A DNA stretch of 38,942 bases from Burkholderiales bacterium (lineage in GTDB: Bacteria; Pseudomonadota; Gammaproteobacteria; Burkholderiales; SG8-41). The position numbers were made by a program, and so were the translations under genes. Shown piece by piece: positions 19,546 to 27,619 of the stretch (positions are counted from its first letter, which is position 1; every line of letters begins with the position of its first letter). Below the pieces are notes generated by a model, which did not search any database, was not told where the DNA came from, and saw only the letters and a program-made list of their open reading frames with translations. Location: the NCBI GenBank assembly GCA_919902235.1, contig CAKKQX010000368.1, positions 1 to 38,942 on the forward strand. The letters are read 5' to 3'.

Positions 19546-19562
19546 TTGGCATACGGCTTGCT
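19546..19562 (+). promoter_or_regulatory. Sigma54 (-24/-12) promoter of the PanB-like operon
   Basis: TTGGCATACGGCTTGCT: GG and GC dinucleotides separated by 10 nt, good match to TTGGCAC-N5-TTGCW; AGGAGG at 19595-19600 before ATG 19606. Confidence 0.8.
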
Positions 19563-19605
19563 TACTTTTATTAATTTTCGGATAAAACCATTTCAGGAGG
19601 ATGCC

Positions 19606-20481
19606 ATGGCAGAACAAGCTGCTCAGAAGCGCAAAAAAGTCACGATACCCATGCTGGTCGAAAAAATGAAAAAGGGCGATCCCATCGTGCAGCTCGCCGT
19701 CTACGATTATGAAACCGCCATTATCGCCGACCGTGTGGGCATAGACATTCTGTGCGTTTCCGATACCGGCGGCATGGTGCTGTTCGGCCACGAATCCACG
19801 ACTTCCGTTTCCTTTGAAGAAGTCATGTACATGGCGCAAGCGGTCAAGCGCGGCTCGCAATACGGTCTGCGCATGGTCGACATGCCCTACATGAGCTTCC
19901 ACCTGTCCGCCCAGCAGGCGGTCGATAATGCCGCCAAATACGTGGCGCAAGGCGGCGCCGAAGTGATGAAATGCGAAGGCAATCAGCACCACGCAAAATA
20001 CATCGAAGCCATCGTCAAGGCCGGCATCCCGGTGCAGGGACACATCGGCATCACGCCCATGCGCATGCCGCAACTCGGCGGCTTCACCGCGCAGGGCAAG
20101 ACGGCGGAACGCGCCAAGGAACTGATCGATGACGCATGGGCCATGGTCGACGCCGGCTGCTTTTCCATCATGTGCGAAGTAACCACCTCGGAAGTTTGCG
20201 AATACCTGGCCGAAACGCTGCCGGTGCCGGTGATCAGCCTGGGTGCGGGCAACCTCGCGCACGGCGTGCATATCATCGGCTCCGACCTGTTCCACCTGTA
20301 CGAGAAACACGTGCCGCGGCATTCCAAGATCTACGTCGATCTCGTGCCCATCATTGAAAAAGGCCTGTGCGATTACCGCGACGAGGTCAGACAGCGCATT
20401 TATCCGGGCAAGGAGCACACCGTCTTCATGAAGGAAGATGAACTGAAACGATTCAAAGAGATGGTCGGCTGGAAGAAGTAA
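19606..20481 (+). CDS. PanB-like ketopantoate hydroxymethyltransferase family protein (divergent paralog)
   Basis: LAVYDYETA, VSDTGGMVLFGHEST, MVDMPYMSF, MKCEGN, GHIGITPMRMPQLGGF, CEVTTSEV, SLGAG; aligns with E. coli PanB with metal-binding Asp residues and catalytic Glu kept. ORF start at 19546 lies inside the promoter. Confidence 0.85.
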   Translation: MAEQAAQKRKKVTIPMLVEKMKKGDPIVQLAVYDYETAIIADRVGIDILCVSDTGGMVLFGHESTTSVSFEEVMYMAQAVKRGSQYGLRMVDMPYMSFHLSAQQAVDNAAKYVAQGGAEVMKCEGNQHHAKYIEAIVKAGIPVQGHIGITPMRMPQLGGFTAQGKTAERAKELIDDAWAMVDAGCFSIMCEVTTSEVCEYLAETLPVPVISLGAGNLAHGVHIIGSDLFHLYEKHVPRHSKIYVDLVPIIEKGLCDYRDEVRQRIYPGKEHTVFMKEDELKRFKEMVGWKK

Positions 20482-20521: not shown

Positions 20522-20986
20522 GTGAATCTCACCGGATCAGCTGCGGCCGAACCCGGGTGCGCCGATATCCTCGCGCACACCGGTTTCTTTTCTGATCTGT
20601 CGCAGCAGCAGCTGCGGCAGGTGTCGCAGCTCGCGCGGATCGAGGAATATCCGCAGGCAAGCCGCATTTACAGCCTGAGCGAGCCGGCCAGCGATCTTTA
20701 TGTACTGGTCGACGGCATGGTGCGATTTACCATCGGACTGGGCAACCGCCAGACCCACGCCGGCCAGATTCTTAAACGCGGGGAAGTGTTCGGCTGGGCA
20801 GCGCTGGTCGAGACCGCACCGAAGCGCATTGCCACCGCACTTGCCATCACGCCGTGCACAGCGCTCGCGATCAACGGCGACCAGCTGCTGATTCTGATGG
20901 ACCAGGATCACACGCTGGGCTATCGCATCATGACCCAGCTTAACGCACTGATTACCGGCAATCTGACCGCGTTCGCATCCGGGTGA
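20522..20986 (+). CDS. Stand-alone cyclic-nucleotide-binding-like (cNMP/CRP effector fold) protein, no HTH
   Basis: FFSDLSQQQLRQVSQLARIEEYPQASRIYSLSEPASDLYVLVDGMVRF...KRGEVFGWAALVETAPKRIATA; ends without a DNA-binding domain; GTG start. Confidence 0.82.
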   Translation: MNLTGSAAAEPGCADILAHTGFFSDLSQQQLRQVSQLARIEEYPQASRIYSLSEPASDLYVLVDGMVRFTIGLGNRQTHAGQILKRGEVFGWAALVETAPKRIATALAITPCTALAINGDQLLILMDQDHTLGYRIMTQLNALITGNLTAFASG

Positions 20987-21815: not shown

Positions 21816-22936
21816 GCGCCACTGCATTCTCCCCGCTCGAGCGCTACTTCGCCCGGCGCGGCGTGAGCCGGATCGAAGTTACACACGGCATCGCGACGCC
21901 GAAACTCTTTACCGACCCGGCGGCCGAGCATATGGCGACCCGCCGTGCTGCAGGCCTGTTTGACTTCTCGTTCATGACTTGCATCGGGATCGAGGGCCGT
22001 GACAGCCTCGCCTTGCTGCACCGGCTGCAAACGCGCAACCTTGCCAGTCTGCAGGACCAGCGGCTTGCTTATAGCCTGCTGCTGCGCGAAAACGGCACCG
22101 TCATCAATGACGTCACCATATGGCGCATCGCAGCCGATCGCTACCTGCTCTTCACCGGCCGTCACGATGACCTCCAGCACCTTGCGCCACTCGCCGACGG
22201 ACTCGCCGTCAGTATCGACGACCGTTCACGCGAGCAGTCGGTGCTGGCGGTGCAGGGGAAACAGGCATGGGCGATCATCAAGCGCTGCTTTAGCGCCCAT
22301 GCGCCCGGCTTGCCGCAGCAGCTGCCCTACTATGGATTCGTCGCACTTACCTTCGACGGCAACGCATGCCTGCTGGCGCGCATCGGTTACAGCGGCGAAA
22401 CCGGTTATGAACTGGTTATCGCTGCCGACGCCGCCCCTGGGCTATGGGACGCCCTGCTGCGGGCCGGCGCAGATCGCGGCATTGCCGAATGCGGCTTCAG
22501 CGCGATCGATACCCTGCGCATCGAAGCCGGCCACATCCTGTTTGCGCGCGAACTGGCGCTGCCGGTCACGCCGTTCGAAATCGGGCTGGCGCGGCTGGTG
22601 GATTTCTACAATGCAGAATGCGCCGGCATTGCGGCGCTGCGCCGCACGCGATGGCAGGCGCCGGCGCGCGCACTCGCCGGGCTGATGATTGACGAGCGCG
22701 CGGCTGAGCTTACCCGGCGGGCGGACGCGGATTTGTCTGCCGTGGCGAAAGGCAGCGCACTGCTCACCAGTGTATGCCTGTCGCCTGTCCTCAGGCGGCG
22801 CATCGGACTCGGTTTCGTCGCCGCAACCGACCGCCGCCCCGGCACACGCGTTCGCCTCGAACCCGGCGTCAGCGCCAGAGTTGCGCGCCTGCCTTTTTAT
22901 GATCCCGGACGCTTCCTGGCGCGGCGTACCCGCTAG
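21812..22936 (+). CDS. GcvT-like aminomethyltransferase / folate-binding protein
   Basis: AGLFDFSFMTCIGIEGRDSLALLHRLQTRNLASL, LLLRENGTVINDVTIWR, RIGYSGETGYELVI, GFSAIDTLRIEAGH; ATGA overlap with the previous stop. Confidence 0.85.
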   Translation: MSATAFSPLERYFARRGVSRIEVTHGIATPKLFTDPAAEHMATRRAAGLFDFSFMTCIGIEGRDSLALLHRLQTRNLASLQDQRLAYSLLLRENGTVINDVTIWRIAADRYLLFTGRHDDLQHLAPLADGLAVSIDDRSREQSVLAVQGKQAWAIIKRCFSAHAPGLPQQLPYYGFVALTFDGNACLLARIGYSGETGYELVIAADAAPGLWDALLRAGADRGIAECGFSAIDTLRIEAGHILFARELALPVTPFEIGLARLVDFYNAECAGIAALRRTRWQAPARALAGLMIDERAAELTRRADADLSAVAKGSALLTSVCLSPVLRRRIGLGFVAATDRRPGTRVRLEPGVSARVARLPFYDPGRFLARRTR

Positions 22937-23814
22937 CTGGCCGGCGCAGCCGCAAGCAATTGCGCGGCAGCACAACGTTCTGCTGCGGTTACCGTGTTGT
23001 CGACCAGCATCGCCACCGTCATCGGCCCGACACCACCGGGCACCGGCGTGATATAAGCCGCCCTCTGCTGCGCTCCCTCGAAATCCACATCTCCGACCAG
23101 CTTGCCGTTGGGCAGGCGGTTAATGCCGACGTCAATCACCGTTGCGCCCGGCTTTACCATCTCGCCGCTGACCAGTCCGGGCCTTCCCGCCGCCACCACC
23201 AGAATGTCCGCCTGTCGGGTGATATGCGCGAGATTCGGTGTTTTGGAATTGCAGACTGTTACGGTGGCACCACGCCCGATCAGCAGCAGCGCCATCGGCT
23301 TGCCAACGATGCCGCTGCGGCCGATAACGACTGCATGGCGTCCTTCAACCGGAATACCCGTGCGATCAAGCAGAGTCATGACGCCCTGCGGAGTACAGGG
23401 CACGAACAGAGGATGGCCGTCGACCAGGGCCCCCAGGTTGCGCCAGTTGAAGCCGTCGACATCCTTATCCACGGCGATTGACTGCACGATGCGCGCGGTG
23501 TCCAGGTGGCGCGGCAGTGGCAGCTGCACAATGATGCCGTGTATGCGCGAATTGAGATTGAGCTTGTCGAGTGCCGTCAGCAGCACGCGCTCGGGGCAAT
23601 CGGCGTCCAGGCGGTGAACCTCCGAATACAGCCCGACCTCGGCGCATACCCGAACTTTGTTGTGTACATAAATTCTCGCAGCCGGATTGTCACCCAGTTG
23701 CACTGCCGCCAGCCCGGGTTGCACACCACGCTTGGAAAGTTTTGTAACCCTTTGTTTTAATTCAGAATTTATATGACGGGCGACAGCCGCTCCGTCAAGC
23801 AGAATAGCCGCCAT
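22933..23814 (-). CDS. folD: Methylenetetrahydrofolate dehydrogenase/cyclohydrolase FolD, copy 1
   Basis: YVHNKVRVC, GIIVQLPLPRHL, DKDVDGFNWRNLG, PCTPQGVMTLL, GRSGIVGKPMA, YITPVPGGVGPMTVAML. Confidence 0.95.
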   Translation of the reverse strand: MAAILLDGAAVARHINSELKQRVTKLSKRGVQPGLAAVQLGDNPAARIYVHNKVRVCAEVGLYSEVHRLDADCPERVLLTALDKLNLNSRIHGIIVQLPLPRHLDTARIVQSIAVDKDVDGFNWRNLGALVDGHPLFVPCTPQGVMTLLDRTGIPVEGRHAVVIGRSGIVGKPMALLLIGRGATVTVCNSKTPNLAHITRQADILVVAAGRPGLVSGEMVKPGATVIDVGINRLPNGKLVGDVDFEGAQQRAAYITPVPGGVGPMTVAMLVDNTVTAAERCAAAQLLAAAPAS

Positions 23815-23830: not shown

Positions 23831-24718
23831 TTAAGCGGGAACGGGATTTCTGCTTTCGGCATTTTTCGCGGCGCTACGTTCTGCGGCCGCGACAGTATTA
23901 CATATCAGCATGGTCACTGTCATCGGGCCGACGCCTCCCGGCACCGGCGTGATGTGTGAGGCCTTCTTTCTTACGCTTTCAAAGTCTACATCACCCGCCA
24001 GCCGTCCGTCGGGAAGGCGGTTGATGCCGACGTCGATGACCACCGCGCCGCGTTTGACCATGGGTGCCGTAATCAGGCCGGGGCAGCCCGCCGCGACAAT
24101 CAGGATATCGGCGAGGATGGTGTACTGTGCCAGATCGCGCGTCTTGATATGACAGATCGAAACCGTCGCGTCCTTGGCCATCAGCATCAGCGCCATCGGC
24201 TTGCCGACGATGTTGCTGGCGCCGACCACCACCACGTTTTGTCCCTCAATCGGAATGTTTTCGTATTCCAGAATACGCTGCACGCCGTATGGCGTGCATG
24301 GCGGGAAAACGTTGTTCTCGCCCACCACCAGGCCGCCGACGTTGTAGAGATGAAACCCGTCGACGTCCTTTTCGACTGAAATTTCCCCCAGCAGCCTGCG
24401 CGGCTCAAGATGTGCAGGTAGCGGCAATTGAACCAGGACGCCATGAATCGCAGGATTCTGGTTGAGCTCCCGGATGCGGCGGATCAAAATATCCGGTGCG
24501 ACATCGGCCGCAAACTCGTGAACCTCGGAATGCAGGCCGACTTCGGCGCAGGCCTTGACCTTGTTGCGCACATAGACCCTCGAAGCCGGATTGTCGCCGA
24601 CGATGATTACCGCCAAACCGGGCGTTACGCGCTTTGCCTTGAGCGCCTCGACGCGCTTTTTCCACTCCGAGCGCACATGCCGGGCAACGGCATTGCCATC
24701 AATGATTTTTGCGGTCAT
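23831..24718 (-). CDS. folD: Methylenetetrahydrofolate dehydrogenase/cyclohydrolase FolD, copy 2
   Basis: YVRNKVKAC, GVLVQLPLPAHL, EKDVDGFHLYNVGG, PCTPYGVQRIL, GASNIVGKPMA, HITPVPGGVGPMTVTML. Confidence 0.95.
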   Translation of the reverse strand: MTAKIIDGNAVARHVRSEWKKRVEALKAKRVTPGLAVIIVGDNPASRVYVRNKVKACAEVGLHSEVHEFAADVAPDILIRRIRELNQNPAIHGVLVQLPLPAHLEPRRLLGEISVEKDVDGFHLYNVGGLVVGENNVFPPCTPYGVQRILEYENIPIEGQNVVVVGASNIVGKPMALMLMAKDATVSICHIKTRDLAQYTILADILIVAAGCPGLITAPMVKRGAVVIDVGINRLPDGRLAGDVDFESVRKKASHITPVPGGVGPMTVTMLICNTVAAAERSAAKNAESRNPVPA

Positions 24719-24986: not shown

Positions 24987-25859
24987 TCAGGTTTTCGCGA
25001 CACGCTTTGAATATGCCTCGACGAAATCGGCAGCGGCTTTGCTGCCGCGCGAAAACGATTTCATCGCTTCTTCGTGCAGGATGGACAGTGCTTCCATCTT
25101 GATTTCATTGGAGCGGTCGTTTTCCACGATATCCAGCAGCCTGCGCGGACGCGGCACGTCGACTTCGAGCACCGCGCGCACCCGGGTCGGAATATTCGAC
25201 ATGATGAACAGGCGGTCGGCGAGGAAAATCGCCTCGTCGATATCCGTGGTGACGAAGAAGTTGGTACGGCGGTTTTCCTCGTAGAGCGCCGAGTAGTACT
25301 CCCACATCAGTTCCTTGGTCATCGCGTCCAGGCCACGAAACGGTTCGTCGAGTATCATCACTTCCGGATTGTTGATCATGGCGCGCGCCAGTTCCGCGCG
25401 CCGCTGCATGCCACCCGAAAGCTGCGTGGGGTATTTCTTGCGGAATTCCTGCAACCCGACTTTTGACAACAGAAATTCAGCCAACTCCAGCGTCTCTTTG
25501 GTCACTTCGCCGCGCGCGCGGGGGCCGTAGAGAATATTGTCGTATGTCGTCATCCACGGGAACAGCGCCGTCTCCTGGAACAGTACCAGACGGTCTCGAG
25601 CCGGGCCGGTCACCGGCTTTCCATTGATGCTGATCGTGCCGGCCGTCGGGTGCTCAAAACCCGCCAGCAGGCGGATCAACGTGCTCTTGCCGCAGCCGGA
25701 CGGACCGATCATCACCGTCAGCTTGCCGCGCTCTATGGTAAACGAGCAGTCCTTCACTACTTCCTTGGCGAACTGGTTCGCTCCGTATTCTTTGCTGACG
25801 CCGGATACGACGATCTCGCCGGCCTGGATCTTGGATTTGAGCTTGTCTTCCTGACTCAT
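24987..25859 (-). CDS. ABC transporter ATPase, nitrate/sulfonate/taurine type (ATPase 1; degenerate H-loop)
   Basis: GPSGCGKSTLIRLLAG Walker A, LSGGMQRRAELARAM signature, VMILDEPFRGLD Walker B, H-loop region FFVTTDIDEAIFLAD. Confidence 0.92.
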   Translation of the reverse strand: MSQEDKLKSKIQAGEIVVSGVSKEYGANQFAKEVVKDCSFTIERGKLTVMIGPSGCGKSTLIRLLAGFEHPTAGTISINGKPVTGPARDRLVLFQETALFPWMTTYDNILYGPRARGEVTKETLELAEFLLSKVGLQEFRKKYPTQLSGGMQRRAELARAMINNPEVMILDEPFRGLDAMTKELMWEYYSALYEENRRTNFFVTTDIDEAIFLADRLFIMSNIPTRVRAVLEVDVPRPRRLLDIVENDRSNEIKMEALSILHEEAMKSFSRGSKAAADFVEAYSKRVAKT

Positions 25860-25878
25860 GATTTTTTCAGTCCCGTAC

Positions 25879-26754
25879 CTATCTCAAGCGCAGCCATGGA
25901 GTGACGTACTTGCCGAGCGACCTGAGCAGCTCGCTCGAGATGAAGCCGGCGATGCCTATGCTGATCATGCCGACCACGATCTGCTCGTAGGAACCGCCGA
26001 CATAGGAATTCCAGATGAAAAACCCAAGGCCGCCGCCGGCGGTGCCCCCAATCTGGCTGCCGCCGCCTGAAATCATTTCAGCCGCCACCACGACCTCCCA
26101 GGTGATCCCCATGCCGACCGCCGAACCGACCATGATGGAGGGTAAGGTCCCGGGCAGAATAATGCGGCGGAAAATATCCCAGCTCGACGAGCCCATGCTT
26201 TGCGCAGCCTGGAAGTAGCGCAGGTCGATCGACTTGGCGCCCCCGACGACGTTGATGACGATGGTGTAAAAGGCGCCGAGGAAAGTCACGAAGGTGATCG
26301 ACAGCTCCTGGGTAGGCCAGAAAATAATCGAAGCCGGCACCCAGGCCAGCGGCGGTATCGGACGCAGCACCTCGAACACCGGGAAGCCGATGCCGAACGC
26401 AGTACGGCTTACTGCCAGCAACAGGCCGAACGGGATACCGATGATCATCGCGGCAATGAAACCGCCCGCAACCCGGGAAAAACTCTTGTACCAGCTGTGC
26501 CAGTAACCGATATCTCCAATTACGCCCCCCCACGCCTTGAGTACTTCGCTGGGTGCGGGTATCGGGCCTATCCACGGCAGGTATTTTTTTTCCCATCCGG
26601 CCATGGCAAGCAGATTGCGCATCCATTCGAACTCCTCCTGAATCAACCAATGCCTGGAACGCGATCCAAGCTCCCATAAAACAAGGAACAGCAGGATCGA
26701 CAAAACACCGCGCCAGAGCGCCGTGCTGATCAGTGATTTTTTCGCTAGCGCCAT
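25879..26754 (-). CDS. ABC transporter permease, nitrate/sulfonate/taurine type (SsuC/TauC-like)
   Basis: Six-TM pattern, FEVLRPIPPLAWVPASIIFW, AAQSMGSSSWDIFRRIILPGTLPSIMVGSAVGMGITW (EAA loop). Confidence 0.92.
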   Translation of the reverse strand: MALAKKSLISTALWRGVLSILLFLVLWELGSRSRHWLIQEEFEWMRNLLAMAGWEKKYLPWIGPIPAPSEVLKAWGGVIGDIGYWHSWYKSFSRVAGGFIAAMIIGIPFGLLLAVSRTAFGIGFPVFEVLRPIPPLAWVPASIIFWPTQELSITFVTFLGAFYTIVINVVGGAKSIDLRYFQAAQSMGSSSWDIFRRIILPGTLPSIMVGSAVGMGITWEVVVAAEMISGGGSQIGGTAGGGLGFFIWNSYVGGSYEQIVVGMISIGIAGFISSELLRSLGKYVTPWLRLR

Positions 26755-26758
26755 GGCA

Positions 26759-27619
26759 TCAACCTTCCTTCTCGCCGGCGGCAAACGCCTTCAGCGCTTC
26801 TTCATGCACCGCCTCGTTGGTTTCCTCGATTAACTCGCGGAAGCGCCTGGAAGTCAGCACGCTGTAGTCACGGGGATGCGGAATGTCGACCTCCAGTATC
26901 TTCTTGGGTTTGCACGGGCGCGTAGTCATGATGGCGACCTTGTGGCCCAGAAAAATCGCCTCTTCCAGATCGTGGGTGATGAAGAAAATCGTCACCTTGT
27001 TCTTGTAGTAGATTTCCAGCAGCGCCTCGTGCATGACCGATTTGGTAAGCGAGTCGAGCGCGCGATACGGCTCGTCAAGCAGCAGCACCTTGGGATCGTT
27101 CATCAGCGCGCGCACGATTTCGACCCTGCGGCGCATGCCTGAAGAAATCTCTCCGGGATAATTGTGCTCCACCCCGGACAACCCCGCATCCGCCATCATG
27201 CTGAGCGCCTTCTCCTTGGCTTCGGCAGGCCTCAGCTTGCCCTGCATGATGGGTCCGAAGGCGACATTATCGAGATTGGTCTTCCACGGAAACAGCGCGC
27301 CATTCTGAAACACCACGATGCGGTCGGAGCCGGGCTCGGCTTTGGGCTTGTCGGCACCGCACAACAACTCACCGTCCAGGAGTATCCGGCCGGAAGTAAT
27401 GTCGTGGAAGCCGGCAATGGCGTTGAGCAGCGTGGTCTTGCCGCAGCCGGACGGGCCAACGATCATGCAGATTTCGCCAGCCTTGATGTCGAGAGAGCAA
27501 TGGTCGACCGCCATCACCGCTGCTCCGCCGGGATCGTAAATTTTGACGACATCCTCGATGCGGATCGCGCCGCGCGCCGCAGTCCCCGCAGGTACAGCTT
27601 GCTGCATAATCGCCGACAT
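26759..27619 (-). CDS. ABC transporter ATPase, nitrate/sulfonate/taurine type (ATPase 2; degenerate signature motif)
   Basis: GPSGCGKTTLLNAIAG Walker A, EISSGMRRRVEIVRAL signature position, VLLLDEPYRALD Walker B, FFITHDLEEAIFLG H-loop. Confidence 0.92.
   Translation of the reverse strand: MSAIMQQAVPAGTAARGAIRIEDVVKIYDPGGAAVMAVDHCSLDIKAGEICMIVGPSGCGKTTLLNAIAGFHDITSGRILLDGELLCGADKPKAEPGSDRIVVFQNGALFPWKTNLDNVAFGPIMQGKLRPAEAKEKALSMMADAGLSGVEHNYPGEISSGMRRRVEIVRALMNDPKVLLLDEPYRALDSLTKSVMHEALLEIYYKNKVTIFFITHDLEEAIFLGHKVAIMTTRPCKPKKILEVDIPHPRDYSVLTSRRFRELIEETNEAVHEEALKAFAAGEKEG

Follow-up and report, generated by a model that had tools for sequence, protein, structure and literature searches.

The 38,942-nucleotide stretch of a Burkholderiales genome analysed here (the window; contig CAKKQX010000368.1) encodes a binding-protein-dependent transporter whose two ATPases carry complementary motif changes. 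The best explanation overall, to which we give a probability of about 0.7, is an importer of the NitT/TauT type with a duplicated cassette, in which the two ATPases would pair as an obligate heterodimer, one of its ATP sites being canonical and the other slow or non-hydrolysing. Whether one or two ATP molecules are hydrolysed per substrate in this importer fold has usually been probed with engineered mutants of symmetric ATPases, while the pair described here would offer a natural experiment with separable subunits, a canonical site next to an altered one, and one-cassette relatives with canonical motifs to compare it with.

The five transporter genes, with reading frames intact according to the list of open reading frames, are arranged on the minus strand in the order binding protein, permease 2, ATPase 2, permease 1 and ATPase 1 (Table 1), and this five-gene set is conserved across related clusters. 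Kinship with NitT/TauT-type importers is evident from the ABC_tran ATPases, whose best NCBIfam matches (ntrCD, TauB and SaoA) stay below the curated cut-offs, and from the BPD_transp_1 permeases and the NMT1/SsuA-type binding protein, which lie in the same gene run in conserved order. The scores do not reach those of NrtABCD proper (ntrCD 205 and 185 versus a cut-off of 292; ntrB 124 and 137 versus 209), and the TauA/TauB/TauC and SsuB/SsuC equivalogs all remain far below their cut-offs, so that a taurine or aliphatic sulfonate transporter in the strict sense is not indicated either. A structure prediction (mean pLDDT 80) gives ATPase 1 the fold of an ordinary nucleotide-binding domain (NBD), closest to CmpD and NrtD.

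Table 1. Transporter genes, neighbouring oxygenase genes and ATP-site motifs in the window.
Feature	Position	Strand	Evidence
ATPase 1, NitT/TauT-type ABC ATP-binding subunit, Thr at switch-His position	24987..25859	-	ORF; PF00005 9.4e-36; nearest solved chains CmpD/NrtD; model fold matches CmpD/NrtD
Thr205, codon ACG, replacing switch histidine of ATPase 1	25245..25247	-	Thr 19/26, Ser 7/26 related clusters
Walker B VMILDEP of ATPase 1, catalytic Glu172 intact	25341..25361	-	motif reading
Signature LSGGMQRR of ATPase 1, intact, residues 147-154	25398..25421	-	motif reading
Walker A GPSGCGKS of ATPase 1, intact	25683..25706	-	motif reading
Permease 1 (BPD_transp_1)	25879..26757	-	PF00528 2e-17; own clade P1
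ATPase 2, NitT/TauT-type ABC ATP-binding subunit, degenerate signature	26759..27619	-	ORF; PF00005 1.2e-31
Switch His216 of ATPase 2, intact	26972..26974	-	motif reading
Walker B VLLLDEP of ATPase 2, catalytic Glu183 intact	27068..27088	-	motif reading
Degenerate signature ISSGMRRR of ATPase 2, residues 158-165; Ser160 at 27140-27142	27125..27148	-	first Gly of LSGG replaced by Ser in 26/26
Walker A GPSGCGKT of ATPase 2, intact	27434..27457	-	motif reading
Permease 2, N-terminal cyclic-nucleotide-binding domain (cNMP_binding + BPD_transp_1)	27620..28963	-	PF00027 1.8e-15, PF00528 5.7e-27; own clade P2
Substrate-binding protein, NMT1/SsuA-like	29054..30187	-	PF13379 9.7e-10; weak PDB match to taurine-binding protein
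Rieske ferredoxin fused to cNMP-binding domain	30299..31009	-	domain match; same-strand neighbour, synteny with transporter in Burkholderiales
Ferredoxin-NAD(P) reductase of Rieske oxygenase	31035..32081	-	domain match; synteny
Ring-hydroxylating oxygenase beta subunit	32098..32550	-	domain match
Rieske oxygenase alpha subunit	32633..33850	-	domain match; nearest solved relative terephthalate dioxygenase

A sequence-only reading of the window had attributed to ATPase 1 a normal signature together with threonine in place of the switch histidine, which holds down to the codon. Its description of ATPase 2, a degenerate signature beside an intact H-loop, was right about the motifs and about six bases off in position, as it placed the signature around 27131-27155. 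The H-loops read FFVTTDIDEA in ATPase 1 and FFITHDLEEA in ATPase 2, while the remaining ATP-site motifs, namely Walker A, the Q-loop (FQE and FQN, respectively), the Walker B glutamate and the D-loop, are intact in both proteins. The Walker B glutamates E172 and E183, which the same reading did not mention, are intact in every copy.

For comparison, 26 clusters with two permeases and two ATPases were assembled from the window, a paralogue in the same genome, 17 within-phylum whole-genome matches and seven loci found by scanning named genomes, among them Polynucleobacter, Stutzerimonas azotifigens, a Nitrospirae MAG, a MAG labelled planctomycete and Mycobacterium colombiense; asymmetric clusters thus occur in Proteobacteria, Nitrospirota, Actinomycetota and the MAG labelled planctomycete. 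At the switch position ATPase 1 has threonine in 19 and serine in seven of the 26 clusters and never histidine, and the first glycine of the LSGG signature of ATPase 2 is serine in all 26. Conversely, all 102 outgroup ABC ATPases recovered by these searches, most of them belonging to one-ATPase NitT/TauT-type systems, have the switch histidine and the signature glycine. Part of this outgroup had been recovered by peptide patterns including FITHD or VGPSGCGK; 27 of 27 background ATPases recovered with an ATPase 1 profile, which has no bias towards histidine, are canonical as well. Canonical orthologs, which would have spoken against the original proposal, were not seen among the 26 clusters, and chance co-occurrence of the two substitutions is ruled out by their presence in 26/26 clusters versus 0/102 other ABC ATPases. 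No pair in which one change occurs without the other was encountered among the pairs from approximately 1,490 genomes covered by overlapping searches and a contig scan of the named genomes, low-scoring singletons having been inspected in part, and a plasmid search for further copies gave only one distant match of 43%.

The codons add to this picture, as position 205 of ATPase 1 is encoded by ACC, ACT, ACA or ACG for threonine or by TCN for serine, and the signature serine of ATPase 2 by TCN as well as AGC across clusters. Since codons turn over synonymously while the residues hold, both changes look selected, which suggests purifying selection on a hydroxyl residue at both altered positions. 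The source genome is a fragmented draft (390 contigs, 87% complete), and a sequencing or assembly error, or the decay of a single copy, might be considered on that ground; this explanation has a negligible probability, because the same residue classes recur with varied codons in 25 other clusters and the reading frames of the window are intact, and sequencing error as such is refuted by the related clusters that carry both changes. An asymmetric importer family, as predicted from these pairs, is rare, yet spread over several phyla.

The paralogue in the same genome (contig C33; locus L025, 6372-11010) is located beside a histidine kinase and without oxygenase genes; its ATPases are 57-64% identical to those of the window and keep both motif changes, with serine rather than threonine at the switch position. 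Two further peculiarities characterize the clade as a whole. The glutamine located two residues beyond the signature core (LSGGM-x-Q-R; residue 153 in ATPase 1, 164 in ATPase 2) is arginine in 52 of 52 subunits but glutamine in 102 of 102 outgroup members, and an arginine directly before the D-loop (DEP-x-R) is found in all 52.

In ABC proteins one domain contributes the Walker A and B motifs and the Q- and H-loops to each ATP site, and its partner contributes the signature (PMC7756269), so that a heterodimer would bring T205 (ATPase 1) and S160 (ATPase 2) together in one site and leave the other canonical. The sequence-only reading had paired the two degenerate motifs in the same way, and its geometry agrees with the composite-site rule. 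Assuming a heterodimer, an altered signature in one NBD thus faces an altered catalytic motif of its partner in the same composite site in 26 of 26 pairs. Alternatively, the two ATPases might form separate homodimers or different assemblies, each tolerating its motif change independently, as the relatives usually have a single ATPase, which must act as a homodimer. We regard this as highly improbable, as each homodimer would contain two damaged sites and only the heterodimer has a canonical one, both ATPase and both permease genes are constantly paired in one gene run in every cluster, and the C and D ATPases of CmpBCD and NrtBCD have been solved together in one complex, which indicates that NitT/TauT-type heterodimers exist. 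An obligate heterodimer is consequently the best reading of the complementary loss in 26/26 pairs, and the importer is most likely a heterotetramer in which one site is canonical and the other impaired.

These cyanobacterial nitrate and bicarbonate importers (PDB 8w9m, 8wm7, 8wm8, 9u9z, 9ua0 and 9ua1) are likewise of the NitT/TauT type with two different ATPases and represent the nearest solved relatives by sequence and, for ATPase 1, by fold. Unlike the pair in the window, however, the aligned chains of NrtCD and CmpCD are canonical in both the SGG signature and the switch histidine and form no degenerate site, and the two complexes, judged from their names, contain a single kind of permease (NrtB or CmpB) instead of two. 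DppBCDF of Escherichia coli is, like the predicted complex, an importer heterotetramer of two permeases and two ATPases; the passages of its report considered here place two nucleotides at the DppD/DppF interface in the closed state and do not describe complementary degeneration of this kind (PMC12136057).

One canonical and one degenerate composite site, with the degenerate signature facing altered catalytic residues, is also the arrangement of CFTR, TAP1/2, MRP1, BmrCD and TM287/288, which are exporters or channels with a membrane fold different from that of the importer in the window. In human degenerate sites the signature is always altered, usually together with the Walker B glutamate and sometimes the H-loop, whereas ABCG5/G8 is affected in Walker A (PMC7756269). 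The combination in the window, an altered signature and switch histidine with an invariant glutamate, is absent from the human degenerate sites of that survey, and asymmetric sites in this importer lineage would have arisen by a route unlike that of most exporters. The logic of asymmetric exporters invoked for the window by the earlier reading is borne out at the level of sequence; RbsA and NupO of Bacillus subtilis, fused importer ATPases with one predicted degenerate site each (PMC11466899), show that asymmetric importers as such are not new. Those proteins differ in belonging to another importer family, in having both NBDs in one chain and in having lost the Walker A lysine, NupO also Walker B residues. 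No description of a NitT/TauT-type importer with a degenerate site was found in the open-access literature; such a site adds to the known asymmetric transporters, with asymmetry in importers already known.

Loss of the Walker B catalytic glutamate, termed a hallmark of degenerate sites in the abstract of PMC7544095, is not observed, the glutamate being kept in 52 of 52 subunits of the 26 pairs. To call the altered site dead, as had been proposed, is for that reason too strong; with both catalytic glutamates retained, unlike in most known degenerate sites, impaired or slow is the fairer description. Indeed, as the Walker B glutamate, the Walker A lysine and the Q-loop glutamine are intact at both sites, the altered site may still hydrolyse ATP, and the effect of the glycine-to-serine change in the signature may be limited to weaker binding or a lower rate. 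It has consequently to be weighed whether both sites hydrolyse ATP, with the threonine or serine at the switch and the retained glutamate keeping the altered site competent and the asymmetry merely tuning the rate. Besides the intact motifs, such an explanation could draw on the Gln-to-Arg change after the signature, which could be compensatory, and on MRP1, whose site 2 stays active with some H-loop substitutions (Gln, Asn; PMC7756269). We nevertheless consider it rather unlikely, because every pair shows changes in two independent motifs of one composite site and none in the other site, and because a changed signature is common to all degenerate human sites (PMC7756269).

In the preferred reading, the core of the importer would be built from both permeases and both ATPases, and the two ATP sites of the obligate ATPase heterodimer would be unequal. 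The first, built from the Walker motifs and His216 of ATPase 2 and the LSGG of ATPase 1, would be canonical and perform most or all of the hydrolysis. The second, in which the Walker motifs of ATPase 1 and its threonine or serine at the switch face the SSG of ATPase 2, would bind ATP with slow or absent hydrolysis and serve as a structural or regulatory clamp, from which a consumption of approximately one ATP per transport cycle would follow. What the sequences show directly is the motifs and their fixation, one origin for each subunit, the duplicated permeases and the constant gene order; heterodimer assembly, ATP binding at the second site without fast turnover and the one-ATP stoichiometry are what we infer. 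That the whole family consists of importers with a single hydrolysing site, made asymmetric through the switch histidine and the signature with the glutamates kept, with the second ATP held as a clamp and about one ATP spent per cycle, has in our estimate an even chance of being correct.

The origin of the pair can be traced in the phylogenies. In a maximum-likelihood tree of 119 ATPases, covering 22 of the 26 clusters and 75 other sequences, ATPase 1 sequences form one clade (support 100/99) and ATPase 2 sequences another (100/98), and the two are sisters with respect to the sampled relatives (100/95). A quicker tree places the permeases P1 and P2 each in one clade (99 and 99) inside a common group (100), with the loci L079 and L124, whose ATPases are canonical, as nearest one-cassette relatives. 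Sister clades, a parallel duplication of the permeases and the gene order permease-ATPase-permease-ATPase together point to tandem duplication, and the history reads as that of a single permease-ATPase cassette which was duplicated in tandem before one composite ATP site degenerated. On the evidence of the trees, the asymmetry is already present in the predicted common ancestor of the sampled pairs, and its distribution over several phyla may be due to either inheritance or transfer.

In Burkholderiales the transporter follows the genes of a multicomponent Rieske oxygenase, and genes for TauE/SafE, GcvT-like, PanB-like and FolD proteins are found nearby, some of which recur in distant clusters. 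Other clusters are devoid of the oxygenase, so the asymmetric ATPases do not go with one particular pathway. PDB and family searches with the binding protein, the oxygenase and the GcvT-like and PanB-like neighbours yielded broad kinship only and no substrate-pointing relatives, no enzyme beside the transporter was shared by the neighbourhoods of four other clusters, and nothing relevant to the gene combination was found in open-access papers; a small methylated or sulfonated organic anion as substrate is our guess.

Three cyclic-nucleotide-binding domains are encoded at the locus, one at the N-terminus of permease 2, one fused to the Rieske ferredoxin and one free-standing (20522-20986). The presence of such a domain on the permease of an importer suggests that a ligand controls transport directly. 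In several distant relatives the match to permease 2 is confined to its permease part, and in one cluster (L035, 10780-11334) a second, partial cNMP/permease-2 N-terminal region lies directly upstream of permease 2. Tandem FolD paralogs (methylene-THF dehydrogenase/cyclohydrolase; 22933-23814 and 23831-24718) adjoin the transporter and constitute, with the close GcvT-like and PanB-like genes, a C1-folate cluster which recurs with the transporter in relatives. The PanB-like ketopantoate hydroxymethyltransferase homologue (19546-20481) is also found near the transporter in distant genomes (L039, L041, L149 and L161), which hints at a role in connection with the transported compound and not in pantothenate synthesis.
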